Assembly: GCA_013821605.1 (NCBI GenBank)
Contig: JACDGP010000002.1
Location: 46,645 to 102,049 of the forward strand
DNA from: Herpetosiphonaceae bacterium
GTDB taxonomy: Bacteria > Chloroflexota > Chloroflexia > Chloroflexales > Kallotenuaceae
DNA: 55,405 nt
Direction of reading: 5' to 3'
Under the pieces are notes generated by a model. That model saw only the letters and a program-made list of their open reading frames with translations, had not been told where the DNA came from and did no database searches. How positions within the stretch are numbered: position 1 is the stretch's first letter; each line of letters opens with the position of its first letter. Below are positions 16,931 to 29,924 of the stretch, piece after piece. A program made the position numbers and the translations under genes.

Positions 16931-17647
16931 TCACGACTCATCTGATCTCGTTCCCGTTCCAAGTGCCTGTGTTATCAACCCTTGTGCAAGCGCATCAAGA
17001 TAGCGCCGGATGGCGACATCATAATAATCAATGGCGCAAACGCCCTTATATCCTGCGTACGTAGATGACTTACCCTCAGTACGAGCATCTACGTAAACTC
17101 GTAGGCACCGTTGAATGCGGGTTACACTGACCCAGTATTGACTAATCTCATCAAGATCTTGGTCAGCCCGAGTAAAAATAGTGATGCGAAACTTAGCCTC
17201 GTCAATTCCAAAGCTAGTTCGGAGCAAGTACAACCAGTAGCGAATGATATTCTCATTACTGTTGGCAAATCTGAATGTATCCTTACCTTTGCTTTCCTCG
17301 CCAAGGTACAACATCGCCGCCGCAATATGGTTCGCATGATGCTGCTGTTCCAGTGTCGCCAGGAGCGCTTCGGCCTTTTGCCGCTCTGCCTCGATCCGGG
17401 CTAAGCGTGCCGCCTTGTTTTTTTCTGCGGCTATATTACGTGCGCCTTTGGCAAATCCTACATCCCGCCGCTTTTCAGCTATGCGGGCTTGTTGTTCCAT
17501 CGTGAGCTTTATGCCTTGTACCCAACCGAGCAACGTATTACGAGGCGGACCAAGCTTCACAGAGATTTCAGTTAACGAAAAGCCTTCTCGCCGCAAACGC
17601 CGTGCTTCCTCACGTAGCTCTTCTGAGTAATAAGTGCCGCGTGGCAT
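16931..17647 (-). CDS. HTH protein with LAGLIDADG-like C-terminal domain
   Basis: 238 residues from an ATG with AGAGG seven bases upstream; the first 14 codons of the longer frame add nothing recognisable. An N-terminal helix-turn-helix (about 5-45, EEARRLRREGFSLTEISVKL) is followed by a basic helix. The C-terminal domain (about 110-225) has LYLGEESKGKDTFRFANSN, IIRYWLYLLRTSFG, and a late GVCAIDYYDVAIRRYLDAL. This pattern is common in actinobacterial and Chloroflexota hypotheticals. It recalls the WhiA/homing-endonuclease fold, without an obvious nuclease site, so a DNA-binding regulator is the likelier role. It sits between tRNA-Val and the thrS operon. Confidence 0.6.
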   Translation of the reverse strand: MPRGTYYSEELREEARRLRREGFSLTEISVKLGPPRNTLLGWVQGIKLTMEQQARIAEKRRDVGFAKGARNIAAEKNKAARLARIEAERQKAEALLATLEQQHHANHIAAAMLYLGEESKGKDTFRFANSNENIIRYWLYLLRTSFGIDEAKFRITIFTRADQDLDEISQYWVSVTRIQRCLRVYVDARTEGKSSTYAGYKGVCAIDYYDVAIRRYLDALAQGLITQALGTGTRSDES

Positions 17648-17704
17648 AGAGCAACCTCTAGTGATGGTAGACAGGGGCAGTGTTCCCAAATGCTGTAAGA
17701 ATCA

Positions 17705-19904: not shown

Positions 19905-22900
19905 ATGTCGATACCGGAGAGCGCCCAACGTGCTCGCACACGCTACGCAGCCGCGCTCTACCGTAGTGCCTTGCTGCGGGATCCCCATCCAGCCCGCGCA
20001 GGACGTGCCGTCATTACCGCTTTTGGGGCTATCACGTGGGATAACGTCCTCCTTGATGACCAGCTGGAAGCACGGCTCGTCGCCAACTTCCCACCGCTAC
20101 CGCGCTTCCAGCAGCGCCCATCACAGTCACCGGTTAACCTGCCGGCCACTTTTTGCGCACTTTCGCCCAGTACACGTCTCGCACTTGGGCTACGTATTGT
20201 GCGGGGCATGGCTACTCCTCTGATTGCCCAGGCCCTCTGGCTAGCCCTGCCCGAAGCACAAACCCTCCTCATTGAAGGGGGGCGGGCGATGAGTGGTGCT
20301 ACTGACACCCTGGGAGGAGCATGCCGGAGTTGCTGGAGTGGCCGCCTTGATGATCCGAATGCTGGCCGCAGCCACATGCTGACCTGCTCTACCTGCCGTG
20401 TCGCCATTCCCCGCTGGGAGCAAGCCGAACGAACCCTCAGTGAGCATCTAGGGCGAGCGCTAGGCAGTCTCTCTCTACCCCCTGCCATTGATGAAGCGCT
20501 CACCGCGAGTCTTGACCCAAGCACCCATACCGGCCATACGCTGCTCTGGCATCGGCCTGCCGTCTTGCAAAGCGTGCTGGTACTTTGCACACTGCTCACA
20601 CTTCTGCTGCTGTTCTGGCCATGGAGGACCGACAAGCTCTCAGCTACGGCCTCGGCAGCATTACCGCCCGCCGCTATTGTCGCAGCTGCGCGCAACACAT
20701 ATGCCGCCGTTCCCCAGGTTTCTGGCTTTCTCCATCGACGCTGGGCGATCACACTCGGCCAGCCCCAGCTCAATTTTCAAGCCGATGAGTGGGTCGACCC
20801 CGCACATCCCGAGCGCCACCGCATGCAACTCGTGGCTGACCGCAGGGTCGCCGAGTGGGAAGTGGGCGATGGTCAAGACCACTTGCTCTATATGAGCAAC
20901 CTAGTGCCCTACTTCTGTGGAGCTTCTCCCATCGGCGTCCAAAGTCATACCAACGAGCGGAATAGTTGGACCATGGGCCCCACTCAACAAGCTGCGATAC
21001 GTACCGTTCGCTGGCACCATGGACCGTGGGCCACCGGTCTCCATTATCTGGATCTCGCTGCCACGGCTGATACCCTCCGCTCGTTGGGCATCGCTGGCAG
21101 CGGCTCCGCTGCCACCCTTACCCTCTCTGCTGAAGGGCGTGCCATCAGCGGCACATTACTTCTACGCTTCGACCCCGTGAGCCATGCGCTCCGCGAAGTC
21201 CGCGAGTTGCAGCACAACAATGGTCAGACCGAAGAACGCGTTCCATGGCAACTAAGGAGCACTGAGACGCTTGACGAGCAAACTGTCGCTCCACATGATC
21301 TGCTCACCTCCTATCCTGACGACAACCAGCCTCCGCTCGTTGAGCGCACCTCGCCTATCATCGATGATGGTTGTCCGCTTACCGGCTCTGAACAAACGCA
21401 AAGTTTGCCCCGCCTTCTGATGATGCCGAACCTGGGTCCGCTCATTGGACTATCAGCCCTGCCCACCGGCCTGAACCAGGCGCTCGTCGTCGGCCCACCT
21501 GATCCAGCTGCTCCAAATGGCTTTAACCAGCAGTTTCGACTCGAAATCAACAACCTGCACGTTGTCTACATTGGATCTGCCAAACGGCTCGTGCTTGTCC
21601 CGGAAGCTCCGCCCATTGCCGGCGATCATCTCGTCGCGGCCGGTCCTTGGCGTGTTCATTTCTTTCCACCGGAAGTGCCAACCGTCTTAACAGCCGTTCT
21701 TCAACCTGCTGCCATAGGGAATGAACAGTTCCATAATGGGAGCAGCCGGGGCAATTATGTGCGCGTACTGGCCGAAGGCTGGACCCGCGATGAACTGCTC
21801 GCTGTCCTCGCCACTGCCCGACCCTTGCGTGTTGATGACTGGGCGAATGCTCCTGATCGCTTCTACGCAACTGCGTCACTCCCAGCAGCCGTGCAAGCCC
21901 ATCTGCTGACTCTGTTTGCAGCCTCCCGCATCACTCCTGGTCAAAGTCATCATCTGGTCGTGGTGGAAACGACGCGTCAGGCTCCGTTCTTTGCCGGTCT
22001 CGCCGACCCGTATCACACGCCTGCCGCACTCTGGCCTGCCGAACGGCGCCAGGAGAGTTGGATCGCCTATGGCAAAGGCGGCCGCGAGGCGCGTGCCCTC
22101 CGCTTGACGAGCGACATGATGGGCCATGTGGTGGCGGCGCAATGGCACGATGAGCAGACATGGCGTAGCTATGATGCTGCGAGTACCACCGTCATCGCCC
22201 AGCCATATCGCGCTGGCGCGCAGCGTGTCGGCGATGCCGTTCTGCCGCTCGCTGCTGCCTGGCAGTGGCAGTGGCATACCTTAGACGATGGCAGCGCTGT
22301 GGCCGAACAACTCCAACCACTGGAAGCCTTGCCGGGGAATGCCGGCCTCGCCAGCAGCGAGGTCGTGTACCTGGACAACTGGACCAACGACTTGGCCACC
22401 GACAGCGCACTTGGTCGGGCCTTCTTTGACAGGCAGGGACACCTTCGGGGTCGGGAAACACTAGCGATCCTGAAAGCAGCCACTTCTGGTACGGAAAACC
22501 ATCTAGGCGTGACTGCGACAACGCCTGTAACCTCGACGGTCATGATCAATCGGGCTGTCATCGAGCAAGACGAATGGTTACCATCAATTCCGGCAAGTAC
22601 CTTCGAATGGACTCTCCCTCCGGGCACCAAGGAGGCTTCCGCCGACAATTTGCTAACCTTCTACCCCTACTTCAATGATCCGCCCGTTAAGGTGCGCAAC
22701 ATCACCGACGCAGCGGCCACGATGCCCTTTACGGTCTGGGACTGGGGACCCACCTGGACGCCTCTAGAGGAAGCACCCGCTTTGAGCGGAATCCTGCAAC
22801 AACCACCCCATACTGGCCAATCGCCGCCGGTCATGCGCGGAACGATCGGCAGTGCCGTTAGTCTGGGGGTGGCCATTGATGCTCATTATGTGCTCGATAA

Positions 22901-23204
22901 CCGCTCTGTTGATCTGCTCCAAGGACCGGCTTCACTGCTACGCCAGCTCCTTCAACAAACTGCGCCCGCGTGGATATCTGCCGAGCAGCGTGTCGTCATG
23001 ATCAATACACAGCCCCGGACGGTGTGGCTGATGCGTGGTACAACCCAAAAAAGTGGTATCAATATCTATTATAACCGGTGGATTGTTTTCGAGATGGATG
23101 GAACCTTATTTTTTCTTCGTGCCGATGTGCAAGATGCGGATCTTGATAAAATTGTTCAACACCTTGACGGGTTGCGACAGGTAGTCCCGCAGCGCCAGCC
23201 GTAA
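19905..23204 (+). CDS. Large membrane protein: sigma-like N-terminus, ZAS zinc motif, one TM, duplicated exported domain (copy 1)
   Basis: 1099 residues. Residues 10-50 resemble ECF sigma region 2 (YAAALYRSALL... AVITAF). Residues 87-128 resemble region 4 with a helix-turn-helix (LSPSTRLALGLRIVRGM... IAQAL). No clear region 2.4 lies between. Then come CRSC (140-143) and HMLTCSTC (157-164), the HxxxCxxC motif of zinc-binding anti-sigma factors; a helix at 219-238; and about 860 exported residues. The exported part looks like two rounds of a LolA/RseB-like unit plus a DUF4367-like unit. A weak GAGG precedes the ATG. The next gene is a collinear paralogue 17 bases away. I infer a sensor in which sigma-like and anti-sigma-like parts share one chain; the function is unproven. 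Confidence 0.7.
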   Translation: MSIPESAQRARTRYAAALYRSALLRDPHPARAGRAVITAFGAITWDNVLLDDQLEARLVANFPPLPRFQQRPSQSPVNLPATFCALSPSTRLALGLRIVRGMATPLIAQALWLALPEAQTLLIEGGRAMSGATDTLGGACRSCWSGRLDDPNAGRSHMLTCSTCRVAIPRWEQAERTLSEHLGRALGSLSLPPAIDEALTASLDPSTHTGHTLLWHRPAVLQSVLVLCTLLTLLLLFWPWRTDKLSATASAALPPAAIVAAARNTYAAVPQVSGFLHRRWAITLGQPQLNFQADEWVDPAHPERHRMQLVADRRVAEWEVGDGQDHLLYMSNLVPYFCGASPIGVQSHTNERNSWTMGPTQQAAIRTVRWHHGPWATGLHYLDLAATADTLRSLGIAGSGSAATLTLSAEGRAISGTLLLRFDPVSHALREVRELQHNNGQTEERVPWQLRSTETLDEQTVAPHDLLTSYPDDNQPPLVERTSPIIDDGCPLTGSEQTQSLPRLLMMPNLGPLIGLSALPTGLNQALVVGPPDPAAPNGFNQQFRLEINNLHVVYIGSAKRLVLVPEAPPIAGDHLVAAGPWRVHFFPPEVPTVLTAVLQPAAIGNEQFHNGSSRGNYVRVLAEGWTRDELLAVLATARPLRVDDWANAPDRFYATASLPAAVQAHLLTLFAASRITPGQSHHLVVVETTRQAPFFAGLADPYHTPAALWPAERRQESWIAYGKGGREARALRLTSDMMGHVVAAQWHDEQTWRSYDAASTTVIAQPYRAGAQRVGDAVLPLAAAWQWQWHTLDDGSAVAEQLQPLEALPGNAGLASSEVVYLDNWTNDLATDSALGRAFFDRQGHLRGRETLAILKAATSGTENHLGVTATTPVTSTVMINRAVIEQDEWLPSIPASTFEWTLPPGTKEASADNLLTFYPYFNDPPVKVRNITDAAATMPFTVWDWGPTWTPLEEAPALSGILQQPPHTGQSPPVMRGTIGSAVSLGVAIDAHYVLDNRSVDLLQGPASLLRQLLQQTAPAWISAEQRVVMINTQPRTVWLMRGTTQKSGINIYYNRWIVFEMDGTLFFLRADVQDADLDKIVQHLDGLRQVVPQRQP

Positions 23205-23221
23205 ACCAGAAACGAGAGGAT

Positions 23222-26200
23222 ATGTCCATTCCCCAAAATGCCGACCGCGCTCGCAACCGCTATGCTGCTGTTCTGTATCGCAGTGCTCTCCTACGTGACC
23301 CTGATGCTACGCGTGCTGGTCAGGCCATAATCACAGCTTGGAGCCACCTCGACTGGGATATCCTGCCGCTCGATGACCAGATCGAGTTGCGTTTGATCGC
23401 TGCATTACCACCTATCCCGCGTTTCCGTTGGAAGCGCCGAGCTTCGTTTGCCCCCATCCCTGCTAGTTTTTGGACATTGTCACCCCCGACACGGCTTGCT
23501 CTTGGTCTGCGCCTTCTGCGCGGTATGGGTAGCCCTGCAATTGCTCGTGCCCTGAATCTATCTTTACTCGAGACCCAAAATCTCCTTCTTGATGGACTGC
23601 TCCGCAGCAGCGGCATCACCTGTAGCAGCGACCTAGAGTGCCGACATTGTATGCTCGCACGTCTTGATGACGCCTCCGGCGAACGAGCGCATCTGCTCAA
23701 CTGCGCGCACTGTCGCGAAACTATCCCGCAGCTCGAACGCTATGAAGCTGAACTTGCTCAGCAGCTTGGTCGTGCTGTTGGCAGCATCGGATTACCACAC
23801 GCCGTTGATGATGCTCTGGTCGCCACCTTTCGCACAACAGGGAGCGGCAAGCGCGGTGAGGCTCCACTGTGGCAGCGACCATTCGTCTGGCAGGTAACAA
23901 CCGTCGGTCTCGTGGTACTGGGACTGGCGCTCCTCTTTAGGTCGCATACAAATCGACCGGCTGTAAGTGTAATGCTGGGTGACCGCGTTGCGTCAGCCAA
24001 AGTGATCATCGATGATGCTCGTCGCCAATACGATACAGTTCCCGTCGTGTCAGGTATCCTCCATCGCCGCTGGGCCATCAACCTTGATCGACCCCAGCTT
24101 AGCTTACAGGCTGATGAATGGGTCGATCCACAACAGCCTGGCCGCCATCGCATGCAATTGATGACTGATCAAAATACTCGAGAATGGCAGGTTGGTGATG
24201 GCGCTGAGGAACTCCGCTACGTTAGCAGCCTTGCGCCATGGTTCTGTGGCATAGTGCCACCTGGTGTTGATATCCATAATAGCCAACAAAATATCTGGCA
24301 TATTGCGGCGCAAGAACAGGCTGAGATGCGGCAAGCACGCTGGCATCATGGGCCTTGGGCAATTGGTCTCCAATATCTCGACCTCGCGGCGGCCGGCCAA
24401 CTACGATCACTCGGTACAGCCGGTGATGGCAGTGATGCGGCCCTGACGATTTCTGCCGAAGGACCCGCGATTGATGGCACGCTGTTATTGCGCTTCGACC
24501 CCGTATCCCATGCCTTGAAAGAAGTCCGGCAACTTCGCACCAACAACGGCCAAACCGAAGAGCGCGTGCCCTGGCGCCTCGTGCTCAATGCAACAATTGA
24601 TCGCGATCAGGCACAGCAAACTGGCATCCTCATTCGCTATCCCGGTGATGCACTACCGGACAGCGTGCAGCGGGCGCTACCGATCATCGACCGTGCCTGT
24701 CCCTTGACTGGGCCTGAACAAGCCCAAAGCCTTCCACGCCTCCTTGCCAGCCAAGGTCAAGCATCTGGACAACTCTGGGGTCTACCTACGCTGCCACTCG
24801 GCATAGACCGCGCCATGATTATTGGCCCGGGCGACCCTGCTAATCCGGGCAACCATGGCGGACCCGGTGCCTCCGATCTTAATACCATGCGCATCGTCTA
24901 TATTGGTGCTACGAAGCGCCTTGTTCTCATGCCGGGTGGACAACAGTTTGGGATCAACCAGCCAGCCCAAACTGGTCCATGGCAAATATCGTTCTTCCCC
25001 TCAGGGATGCCGACAATACTACGCGGGACCTTGCAACACACTTCAACGGTCCAGCTAGGGCGCGGCTTTGGGCAACGCAACGGCATACGTGTGCAAGCCG
25101 AAGGCTGGACCAAAGAAGAGTTACTCCCGTTGCTGGCAAGCGTGCGTCCTCTAAGCTTGGAGGACTGGGCTCGCTCTCCTGACCGCTTCTACGAGCCGGT
25201 TCCGCTCGATCCCACATTACGGGAGCGCCTGCTGCATATTATCAACGCCTCCCAACCACAGGCCGAACGTATCCACCATCGGGTTGTTCTAACCACGACT
25301 CGCCAGAACCCGGCCGAAGTTACTTTAACCGATCCCTACCATCTGCCGACTGGCAAATGGCCTCCCGTCCGGCGTGTCGAAAGTTGGAGTGAAGTGGATC
25401 CTACGAGTGGGACGACGCTACGCTGGCGCGAGGTGTCGACCGACACACAGGGCCGCTCGTTGACAGCTGAATGGAATGACGGGCAAGTGCTCCATAGTTA
25501 TACAGCCGTCAGCAACAGTGTCATCACGGAAACGGCATCGTCGGCCATTTCCGCACCACTCAATCCTGCCGCCGATCTCCTTCGCAATACCGATTGGCAG
25601 TGGACTACGCAGGCTGATGGCACACTTATCGCCGAGCATGCTCAGGTATTACCATGGCAAGGTTTCGACGGTTTATACCAACCATGGACGCTTGATGATT
25701 GGACAACCGATCTCGGCCTGCGCCATGGCATCGAGCGACTCATCTTTAATGCCGATGGCACTCTACAAGCGCGCGAAATTCTTGCTGCGCCGCGCACCAA
25801 TGCACAGTCTGCGCCAGTAACCACTGTTCTGGTCCATCGCGAGGTGGTCCTGCAGGACGAGTGGCTTCCCACTGCTTCCGATGCCAGCTTTACGTGGAAT
25901 GCAGATCCTGGTGCGGTCGAGATTGGTCGCTTTGCCCTGGACTCGCTTTCGACGCCACAGGCTCTCGGTCCGCAACCTCACTCGCTTGAAGAGGCAGCCG
26001 CTGCCGTACCATTTCCCATTTGGGCCTGGTCCCGTAACAACTCTACCTTTGCTGGCCCTGCTTCCAATGTTCCATCCCAATTTGCGAATGATGAACCCTT
26101 GCTAGGTCGGGCCAGTATTGAGCAAGCACTTAATTTGGGTGTCGCCGTTCAGCTACGTTACGATCTTCCGTATGGGCCATTAGAGCTGCTGGAAGGACCT

Positions 26201-26455
26201 TCCCCAGTGCTTCGACGCCTCCTCCAACAAACGGCACCCCGATGGACAACGTCCGAGCCTCGTCAAGTGACCATCCATGGCCAATCGCACGAACTCTGGA
26301 TCATGGATGGCAAGAGCAGCAATAATTCGTGGCTTGTCTTCGAGCTTGACCAAACCCTGTTTTTTATGCATTTTGGAGGGCCGCCGGCTGACGTGCAAGC
26401 TGTTATCGATCATCTCGGCGACTTGCAGGTTGTTACGCCCTCCCAACATACCTGA
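23222..26455 (+). CDS. Large membrane protein, paralogue of preceding gene (copy 2)
   Basis: 1077 residues, collinear with copy 1: sigma region 2-like 10-50, region 4-like 87-128, CRHC at 140-143, HLLNCAHC at 157-164 (identical cysteine and histidine positions) and a membrane helix at about 221-239. Long shared blocks appear in the exported part: HRRWAI, WVDP, FDPVSHAL-EVR, NNGQTEERVPW, CPLTG-EQ-QSLPRL and LLRQLLQQTAP-type ends. By eye roughly half the residues match. The linker between the region 4-like part and CRHC has diverged most. GAGAGG is close to the ATG. The pair arose by tandem duplication and probably shares a transcript with the downstream PyrK-like gene. Confidence 0.7.
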   Translation: MSIPQNADRARNRYAAVLYRSALLRDPDATRAGQAIITAWSHLDWDILPLDDQIELRLIAALPPIPRFRWKRRASFAPIPASFWTLSPPTRLALGLRLLRGMGSPAIARALNLSLLETQNLLLDGLLRSSGITCSSDLECRHCMLARLDDASGERAHLLNCAHCRETIPQLERYEAELAQQLGRAVGSIGLPHAVDDALVATFRTTGSGKRGEAPLWQRPFVWQVTTVGLVVLGLALLFRSHTNRPAVSVMLGDRVASAKVIIDDARRQYDTVPVVSGILHRRWAINLDRPQLSLQADEWVDPQQPGRHRMQLMTDQNTREWQVGDGAEELRYVSSLAPWFCGIVPPGVDIHNSQQNIWHIAAQEQAEMRQARWHHGPWAIGLQYLDLAAAGQLRSLGTAGDGSDAALTISAEGPAIDGTLLLRFDPVSHALKEVRQLRTNNGQTEERVPWRLVLNATIDRDQAQQTGILIRYPGDALPDSVQRALPIIDRACPLTGPEQAQSLPRLLASQGQASGQLWGLPTLPLGIDRAMIIGPGDPANPGNHGGPGASDLNTMRIVYIGATKRLVLMPGGQQFGINQPAQTGPWQISFFPSGMPTILRGTLQHTSTVQLGRGFGQRNGIRVQAEGWTKEELLPLLASVRPLSLEDWARSPDRFYEPVPLDPTLRERLLHIINASQPQAERIHHRVVLTTTRQNPAEVTLTDPYHLPTGKWPPVRRVESWSEVDPTSGTTLRWREVSTDTQGRSLTAEWNDGQVLHSYTAVSNSVITETASSAISAPLNPAADLLRNTDWQWTTQADGTLIAEHAQVLPWQGFDGLYQPWTLDDWTTDLGLRHGIERLIFNADGTLQAREILAAPRTNAQSAPVTTVLVHREVVLQDEWLPTASDASFTWNADPGAVEIGRFALDSLSTPQALGPQPHSLEEAAAAVPFPIWAWSRNNSTFAGPASNVPSQFANDEPLLGRASIEQALNLGVAVQLRYDLPYGPLELLEGPSPVLRRLLQQTAPRWTTSEPRQVTIHGQSHELWIMDGKSSNNSWLVFELDQTLFFMHFGGPPADVQAVIDHLGDLQVVTPSQHT

Positions 26456-29321: not shown

Positions 29322-29924
29322 ATGGAAGCGTTGCGCGTGCTTGTTGTTGAGCAAACTGAAGAGATAGGCCTGGAACTGCGAGGTATTGCCGCAAGTTTGG
29401 GACATTCAGCCATTGTTGCTGTCGACGGGGAAGAAGCTTTAGGTTACTTGCATGCCTTGCCATTCGATGCGATCGTGGCTGAGTATGGCCTGCCTGACAT
29501 GGATGCTATTACGTTGCTGGGACGCGTCCGCACCGAGTGGTCGCAGATCCCGATGGTCATGCTTACGACGGATGCCGCTGGTGGTCATGCATTAGAGGCT
29601 TACGAGCGCGGTGTGTGCGATGTACTCCGTAAGCCGGTGGCTGCGCCGTGGCTCGCCATCGCCTTCCAGCGCGTAGCGGAGCAATTGGAGCTGATTCAGC
29701 TCCGTGAGGCCACCGTTGTGTCTCCTCAACAACTCGCTTACCGTTTTGCGCATGCCATTAATAATCCACTTTCTGTCATGTTCGGTCTCGTCCAGCTGAT
29801 GTTGGGTAGCGATGAACTGCCACCGTCGCTCCGCGAGGACGTGCAAATGCTGGCTGACAACACTCTGCGACTCACCCAGATTGTTAAAAATCTTACACAG
29901 ATGGCAGTGGTGGACGATCTATAG
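29322..29924 (+). CDS. Degenerate receiver domain fused to a lone H-box (DHp-like) domain
   Basis: 200 residues. The receiver fold spans 5-120, but the phospho-acceptor Asp is Glu54 (VAEYGLPDMD) and the usual acidic pair is Glu10-Gln11. The threonine at about 82-83 and Lys104 are kept. A helix links to RFAHAINNPLSVMFG (about 141-155), an H-box like that of histidine kinases with His144, and a second helix to the end. There is no ATP-binding domain. Glu may mimic phosphorylation, and the H-box could receive phosphate from another kinase or simply dimerise. AGGAGC lies before the ATG. Confidence 0.7.
   Translation: MEALRVLVVEQTEEIGLELRGIAASLGHSAIVAVDGEEALGYLHALPFDAIVAEYGLPDMDAITLLGRVRTEWSQIPMVMLTTDAAGGHALEAYERGVCDVLRKPVAAPWLAIAFQRVAEQLELIQLREATVVSPQQLAYRFAHAINNPLSVMFGLVQLMLGSDELPPSLREDVQMLADNTLRLTQIVKNLTQMAVVDDL

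Follow-up and report, generated by a model that had tools for sequence, protein, structure and literature searches.

Two adjacent genes in the stretch of DNA analysed here (the window, 55,405 nucleotides) raise the question of what a single membrane polypeptide does with both a sigma-like and an anti-sigma-like part. A sequence-only reading had proposed that such a chain could hold its DNA-binding part at the membrane until proteolysis, or act as a membrane-bound transcription factor, and knew of no described family with this order of parts. We revisited both genes with profile searches, structure predictions and a survey of the phylum.

Layout of the chains and extent of the family

As Table 1 shows, the two genes lie on the + strand, with a gap of 17 bases between them. 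Both products carry cysteines at 140, 143, 161 and 164 and HxxxCxxC at 157-164, and each has a single hydrophobic segment (19-residue windows starting at 217-224 in P0001 and at 220-222 in P0002). The open reading frames and cysteine positions thus confirm the two paralogues of 1099 and 1077 aa that had been described, with their parts at the same positions, and the hydropathy profile confirms one membrane helix followed by ~850 exported residues in each.

Table 1. Coordinates in the window of the two genes and of the parts assigned to their products.
Feature	Positions	Strand	Remark
Gene 1 (P0001), 1099 aa, pseudo-sigma / ZAS / TM / two LolA-RseB-like exported units	19905..23204	+	
Putative pseudo-sigma2, gene 1, residues 1-66	19905..20102	+	region 2.2 contact residues lost
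Putative pseudo-sigma4 helix-turn-helix, gene 1, residues 80-131	20142..20297	+	recognition helix net charge -1
Class I anti-sigma (ZAS) domain, gene 1, residues 136-205	20310..20519	+	
C140, first predicted zinc ligand, gene 1	20322..20324	+	invariant, 13 aligned homologues
HxxxCxxC, gene 1, residues 157-164	20373..20396	+	
Membrane helix, gene 1, residues 217-237	20553..20615	+	hydropathy; helix 219-236 in model
Juxtamembrane linker, gene 1, residues 238-252	20616..20660	+	pLDDT <50 at 238-252
Exported unit 1, LolA-type domain as in RseB, gene 1, residues 253-469	20661..21311	+	fold match
Exported unit 1 remainder, gene 1, residues 470-654	21312..21866	+	equivalent homologue region aligns with RseB second domain
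Exported unit 2, LolA-like, gene 1, residues 657-915	21873..22649	+	fold match
Unit 2 C-terminal region, gene 1, residues 916-1099	22650..23201	+	no fold assigned
Gene 2 (P0002), 1077 aa, tandem paralogue	23222..26455	+	parts ordered as in gene 1
Putative pseudo-sigma + ZAS, gene 2, residues 1-205	23222..23836	+	
HxxxCxxC, gene 2, residues 157-164	23690..23713	+	
Membrane helix, gene 2, residues 220-240	23879..23941	+	hydropathy
Exported region, gene 2, residues 253-1077	23978..26452	+	homologous to gene 1 units 1 and 2

The window lies on contig C190 of a 5.9 Mb genome, which has a third long copy on contig C11. On contig C158, a 50-aa reading frame (L012:1501-1650, G000:C158) matches the family N-terminus with 58% identity over 45 residues and then ends in a stop; it is likely the remnant of a further family copy. 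Elsewhere in the window, positions 29322-29924 encode a receiver domain followed by HisKA in only 200 aa, with the ATPase domain absent from the frame, and a 252-aa frame on the - strand (16931-17689) has a helix-turn-helix-like start and is without a Pfam match.

A first scan of the genome contigs with the three local paralogues gave no match; a later scan with another alignment gave eleven named loci. The profile of the three local N-termini finds homologues in 27 genomes of the class, as well as weak matches in three more genomes, which were rejected as family members because, judging by sequence, L038 and L041 are ordinary anti-sigma factors and L042 is an ordinary ECF sigma factor. With a wider profile and an ectodomain profile, a search of 400 genomes of the phylum extends the family to 38 genomes, among them Chloroflexus islandicus, Oscillochloris and other Chloroflexales; all 38 belong to that one order. 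Ectodomain matches always share an open frame with an N-terminal profile match, and in the 400 genomes the ectodomain was not found apart from the N-terminal part. Most members are 660-750 aa long. The extra length of the window proteins, of members of the same family and of the OHK40 protein (L045, 1133 aa) corresponds to a second exported unit. An assembly or frame error was rejected, as one open frame with the same part order is seen in 38 genomes.

Among the neighbours of the family gene, both in the window and in those Chloroflexaceae loci that were read, no gene could be recognised as coding for an ECF or an anti-sigma factor. In some Chloroflexaceae only, the gene directly upstream encodes a MoxR-type AAA ATPase (L043:3846-4889, L045:6751-7731, L051:1956-2933); it was not adopted as a partner.

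The cytoplasmic part: sigma fold, anti-sigma domain and contact residues

Pfam and NCBIfam scans of full-length P0001 and P0002 gave no match, and the sigma and ZAS assignments therefore rest on family profiles; the Pfam families matched by most members are zf-HC2 (9/27) and Sigma70_r4_2 (8/27). The 27 family N-termini align with 17 ECF sigma factors of the window's own genome over 128 columns that span both sigma domains (hhalign probability 98.1, E 1.1e-13). Against PDB sequences the family profile gives sixteen distinct hmmsearch matches below 0.01 (best 2.9e-10), each of them an ECF sigma factor or a PhyR-type response regulator. Structure prediction also yields a sigma-type fold. In the model of a compact homologue (L043, pLDDT 77.5), the best fold match of the sigma part is anti-sigma-bound RpoE (5uxx, Z 12.7, 146 residues), and PhyR in the PhyR/NepR complex (4qic) is matched with Z 12.2; the predicted P0001 model matches PhyR with Z 9.9 and rmsd 3.0. 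Polymerase-bound SigH chains align to the L043 model only with an rmsd of ~27, which suggests that this predicted model has the compact arrangement. An ECF sigma2-sigma4 fold at residues ~1-131 of both window proteins is, as anatomy, well supported, in line with the region 2-like and region 4-like parts named by the sequence-only reading.

The ZAS part aligns with nine anti-sigma factors of the window's own genome (hhalign probability 93.4, E 2.4e-7), while the cross-controls, ZAS against sigma factors and the sigma part against anti-sigma factors, return a probability of 0.4. The Hx3Cx2C motif with an upstream Cys that marks a class I anti-sigma domain (ASDI/ZAS) is present, with HxxxCxxC in 35/39 homologues (the 27 aligned members and 12 more) and 32 with the upstream Cys, so that assigning residues 157-164 to the ZAS motif has proved sound. 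Of the four homologues without it, one is a fragment of 151 aa, too short to reach the motif. L027, L112 and L142 have lost HxxxCxxC and keep the remaining architecture; the ZAS half is thus conserved, though not strictly. In shuffled residues 1-215 the motif arises in 0.2-0.3% of cases, and a chance motif was rejected given its identical position in both chains and its conservation in homologues. The CxxC read at 140-143 fared less well: both cysteines are present in both chains, but only C140 is invariant in 13 aligned homologues, C143 being common only to the three long copies of the window's genome. CxxC is therefore not a family motif, and a conserved redox pair was rejected. C140 is predicted to be the first zinc ligand, with H157, C161 and C164.

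The good conservation of this domain, both in its motif and in its dN/dS of 0.13-0.38, is what one would expect if the protein were a membrane anti-sigma factor for a separate, true ECF sigma factor, with the sigma-like part either left over from an earlier function or serving as an internal plug by which the ZAS domain is tuned. For several ECF sigma factors of the window's genome no zf-HC2 match was detected close by, and unpaired sigma factors may thus exist. ZAS genes, however, usually adjoin their sigma gene, and none is recognised here; moreover, the sigma-like half occurs in every full-length homologue, as a mere remnant need not. We regard this alternative as unlikely.

What the sigma fold lacks is the set of residues with which a sigma factor works. 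The three region 2.2 contact positions, which we take to be equivalent to sigma70 D403, Q406 and E407, are D/E (17/17), Q (15/17; Q or A 17/17) and D/E (17/17) in the 17 ECF sigma factors, versus D/E in 2/27, Q in 1/27 and D/E in 0/27 family members in the joint alignment; no paper on sigma70 core-binding mutants was found in the open-licence literature. The strict motif [DE]xxQ[DE] occurs in 0/39 homologues versus 14/17 same-genome ECFs, and the region 2.3 W in 0/27 versus 17/17. The sigma4 recognition helix has a mean charge of -0.7 in the family versus +3.1 in the ECFs (p 4e-8), and its GTVKxR-type motif is absent from all homologues examined. The standalone ECFs closest to the family profile retain the region 2.2, region 2.3 and sigma4 residues. 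In RNA polymerase, the clamp helices of beta-prime are the contact site for regions 2.1 and 2.2 (PMC7406223). The absence of a distinct region 2.4, already noted from the sequence alone, is confirmed and belongs to a wider loss that takes in regions 2.2, 2.3 and 4.2.

With the polymerase- and DNA-contact residues gone, the sigma part most likely takes part in protein-protein exchange without transcription start; by its residues it is probably a disarmed decoy and not a functional sigma factor. In five close pairs, dN/dS is 0.24-0.41 for the sigma2-like part and 0.05-0.60 for the sigma4-like part. Values below 1 in both parts indicate that the pseudo-sigma is not freely decaying, and those of 0.5-0.6 reached in some pairs indicate a modest constraint on the sigma4-like part; overall, purifying selection on the pseudo-sigma appears moderate.

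These losses also bear on the idea that the chain is a working ECF sigma factor, tethered to the membrane until regulated proteolysis sets it free, as is proposed for ECF52 (SCO4117) and shown for IutY. Such a protein would share its part order with ECF48/52/53 (PMC8999054), would have precedents in the truncation data on SCO4117 (PMC5826349) and in the proteolytic release of IutY (PMC5411451), and would fit both the intact sigma fold of the predicted L043 model and the M50 site-2 proteases encoded in the window's genome. The family-wide loss of the region 2.2 residues, the region 2.3 W and the basic sigma4 helix, all kept by the nearest standalone ECFs, nevertheless makes it very unlikely. 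The membrane-bound transcription factor of the sequence-only reading is accordingly disfavoured, whereas the fusion of sigma-like, ZAS, membrane and exported parts on which it was built stands, on profiles and folds.

On sequence grounds, the family most likely goes back to a sigma gene and an adjacent anti-sigma gene that became fused. Outside the Chloroflexales, the family profile breaks at the sigma/ZAS junction in the phylum search: in other orders, frames of ~180-230 aa, with the size and place of standalone ECFs, match columns ~4-136, and separate frames match columns ~141-250, the anti-sigma part. In four loci (L149, L152, L153 and, in the window's own genome, L154), an ordinary ECF is followed in the same frame by a ZAS anti-sigma, with one to three stop codons and a handful of residues between them, and the family profile reads through ECF, stop(s) and ZAS. 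Loci of this kind suggest a possible route to such a fusion.

The exported part and a possible envelope relay

The 14 best Foldseek PDB matches of the compact homologue's ectodomain are all RseB/MucB (E 2e-8 to 1e-5); MucB 6jau stands at 2e-8, with LolA later at 3e-4. RseB 3m4w aligns with Z 12.6 over 264/276 residues (rmsd 5.5), covering both RseB domains. Since the RseB score is approached to within 1 Z by LolA-type chains, the safe wording is that the ectodomain is predicted to have a lipid-binding fold of LolA type, joined to a second domain that resembles the one in RseB. The P0001 model is weak overall (pLDDT 58.8), with residues 470-654 poorly confident, and matches the large domain of RseB only; the two-domain RseB/MucB fold is found on the compact homologue. 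Within P0001, residues 253-469 match RseB 2v43 (Z 10.8, 168 residues, rmsd 4.8) and residues 657-915 the LolA-type carrier 4mxt (Z 11.5, 170 residues, rmsd 3.8). The RseB likeness has no sequence counterpart in Pfam at E up to 1 or in PDB sequences at E up to 10. In sequence, units 1 and 2 are not alike (hhalign probability 1.7), and although both match LolA folds, a duplication of unit 1 is not supported.

Fold matches to LolA, LprG and LolB-type proteins, an ectodomain that takes up over half the length of the protein and the loss of zinc ligands in some relatives would all suit a membrane-anchored carrier of lipids or lipoproteins (LolA/LprG-like), whose cytoplasmic sigma/anti-sigma part is a structural anchor only. 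An anchor of this sort hardly accounts for a cytoplasmic order kept in 38 genomes with both cytoplasmic parts under purifying selection, and we consider it quite unlikely.

We favour, at a little under even odds (about 0.45), the reading that each gene encodes a one-chain envelope relay of pseudo-sigma, ZAS domain, membrane helix and RseB/LolA-type sensor that works by partner exchange. The sensor, with two LolA-like units in the window copies and one RseB-like unit in most relatives, would bind a lipid or lipoprotein. At rest, the pseudo-sigma would occupy the ZAS domain in cis. Binding of the ligand outside would alter the chain, or would expose the linker at 238-252, a possible site-1 cleavage region judging by the gene 1 model, to site-1 and then site-2 proteolysis. 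Once freed or opened, the pseudo-sigma/ZAS piece would bind true ECF sigma factors or their anti-sigma factors, and the whole would amount to a membrane-held counterpart of PhyR. A bolder version, in which a sigmaE-RseA-RseB-type relay has been drawn into one polypeptide with the sigma as a decoy in cis, giving a lipid-gated switch, tethered to the membrane, that would release or capture true ECFs across the Chloroflexales, is tentative and somewhat doubtful.

If the relay reading is true, sigma mimicry, known from PhyR, would have evolved in a distant phylum in a membrane-bound form, by a route in which a sigma gene was first fused with the anti-sigma that belongs to it and with a sensor resembling RseB, after which the sigma was disarmed. 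The family would offer a compact system in which to probe RseB-type sensing where the envelope differs from that of Proteobacteria. It would also advise caution, as sigma-like domains that escape Pfam and NCBIfam may serve in regulation instead of initiating transcription.

Comparison with known systems

The view that no described family has this order does not hold. The actinobacterial ECF48, ECF52 and ECF53 are described as sigma-ZAS-TM-ectodomain chains (PMC8999054), and the same succession of sigma2, sigma4, zinc finger, membrane helix and exported domain in one chain is found here. The order is thus already known; what is new is the lineage, a sigma that is apparently disarmed and a sensor of RseB/LolA-like type, and the combination of pseudo-sigma and such a sensor was not found described in the accessible open-licence literature. 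ECF48/52/53 are annotated ECF sigma factors, whereas the Chloroflexales family has a degenerate sigma and the window proteins are without a recognisable sigma domain in Pfam or NCBIfam. SCO4117 of Streptomyces (ECF52), which has been studied and affects transcription (PMC5826349), differs further in its proline-rich, carbohydrate-binding ectodomain, that of the family being RseB/LolA-like.

In IutY of Pseudomonas putida (ECF243), too, one membrane polypeptide contains both the sigma and the anti-sigma; its sigma, however, is active, serving iron cell-surface signalling after release by Prc and RseP (PMC5411451). PhyR is described as having a correct ECF structure with degenerate promoter and core regions (PMC8103513), and the family resembles it in combining an ECF fold (Z 12.2 and 9.9) with degenerate polymerase- and promoter-contact regions. 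PhyR is soluble, is fused to a receiver domain and titrates NepR, whereas Pfam finds no receiver domain in P0001 or P0002, and in the family the presumed sigma mimic shares its chain with a ZAS domain, a helix that spans the membrane and a sensor of lipid type.

The RpoE-RseA-RseB system has the same three roles in the same order: sigma factor, membrane anti-sigma factor and RseB-like periplasmic regulator. There the roles fall to three proteins and the sigma is functional; here they are found along one chain, with a probable pseudo-sigma and a likeness to RseB at the level of fold only.
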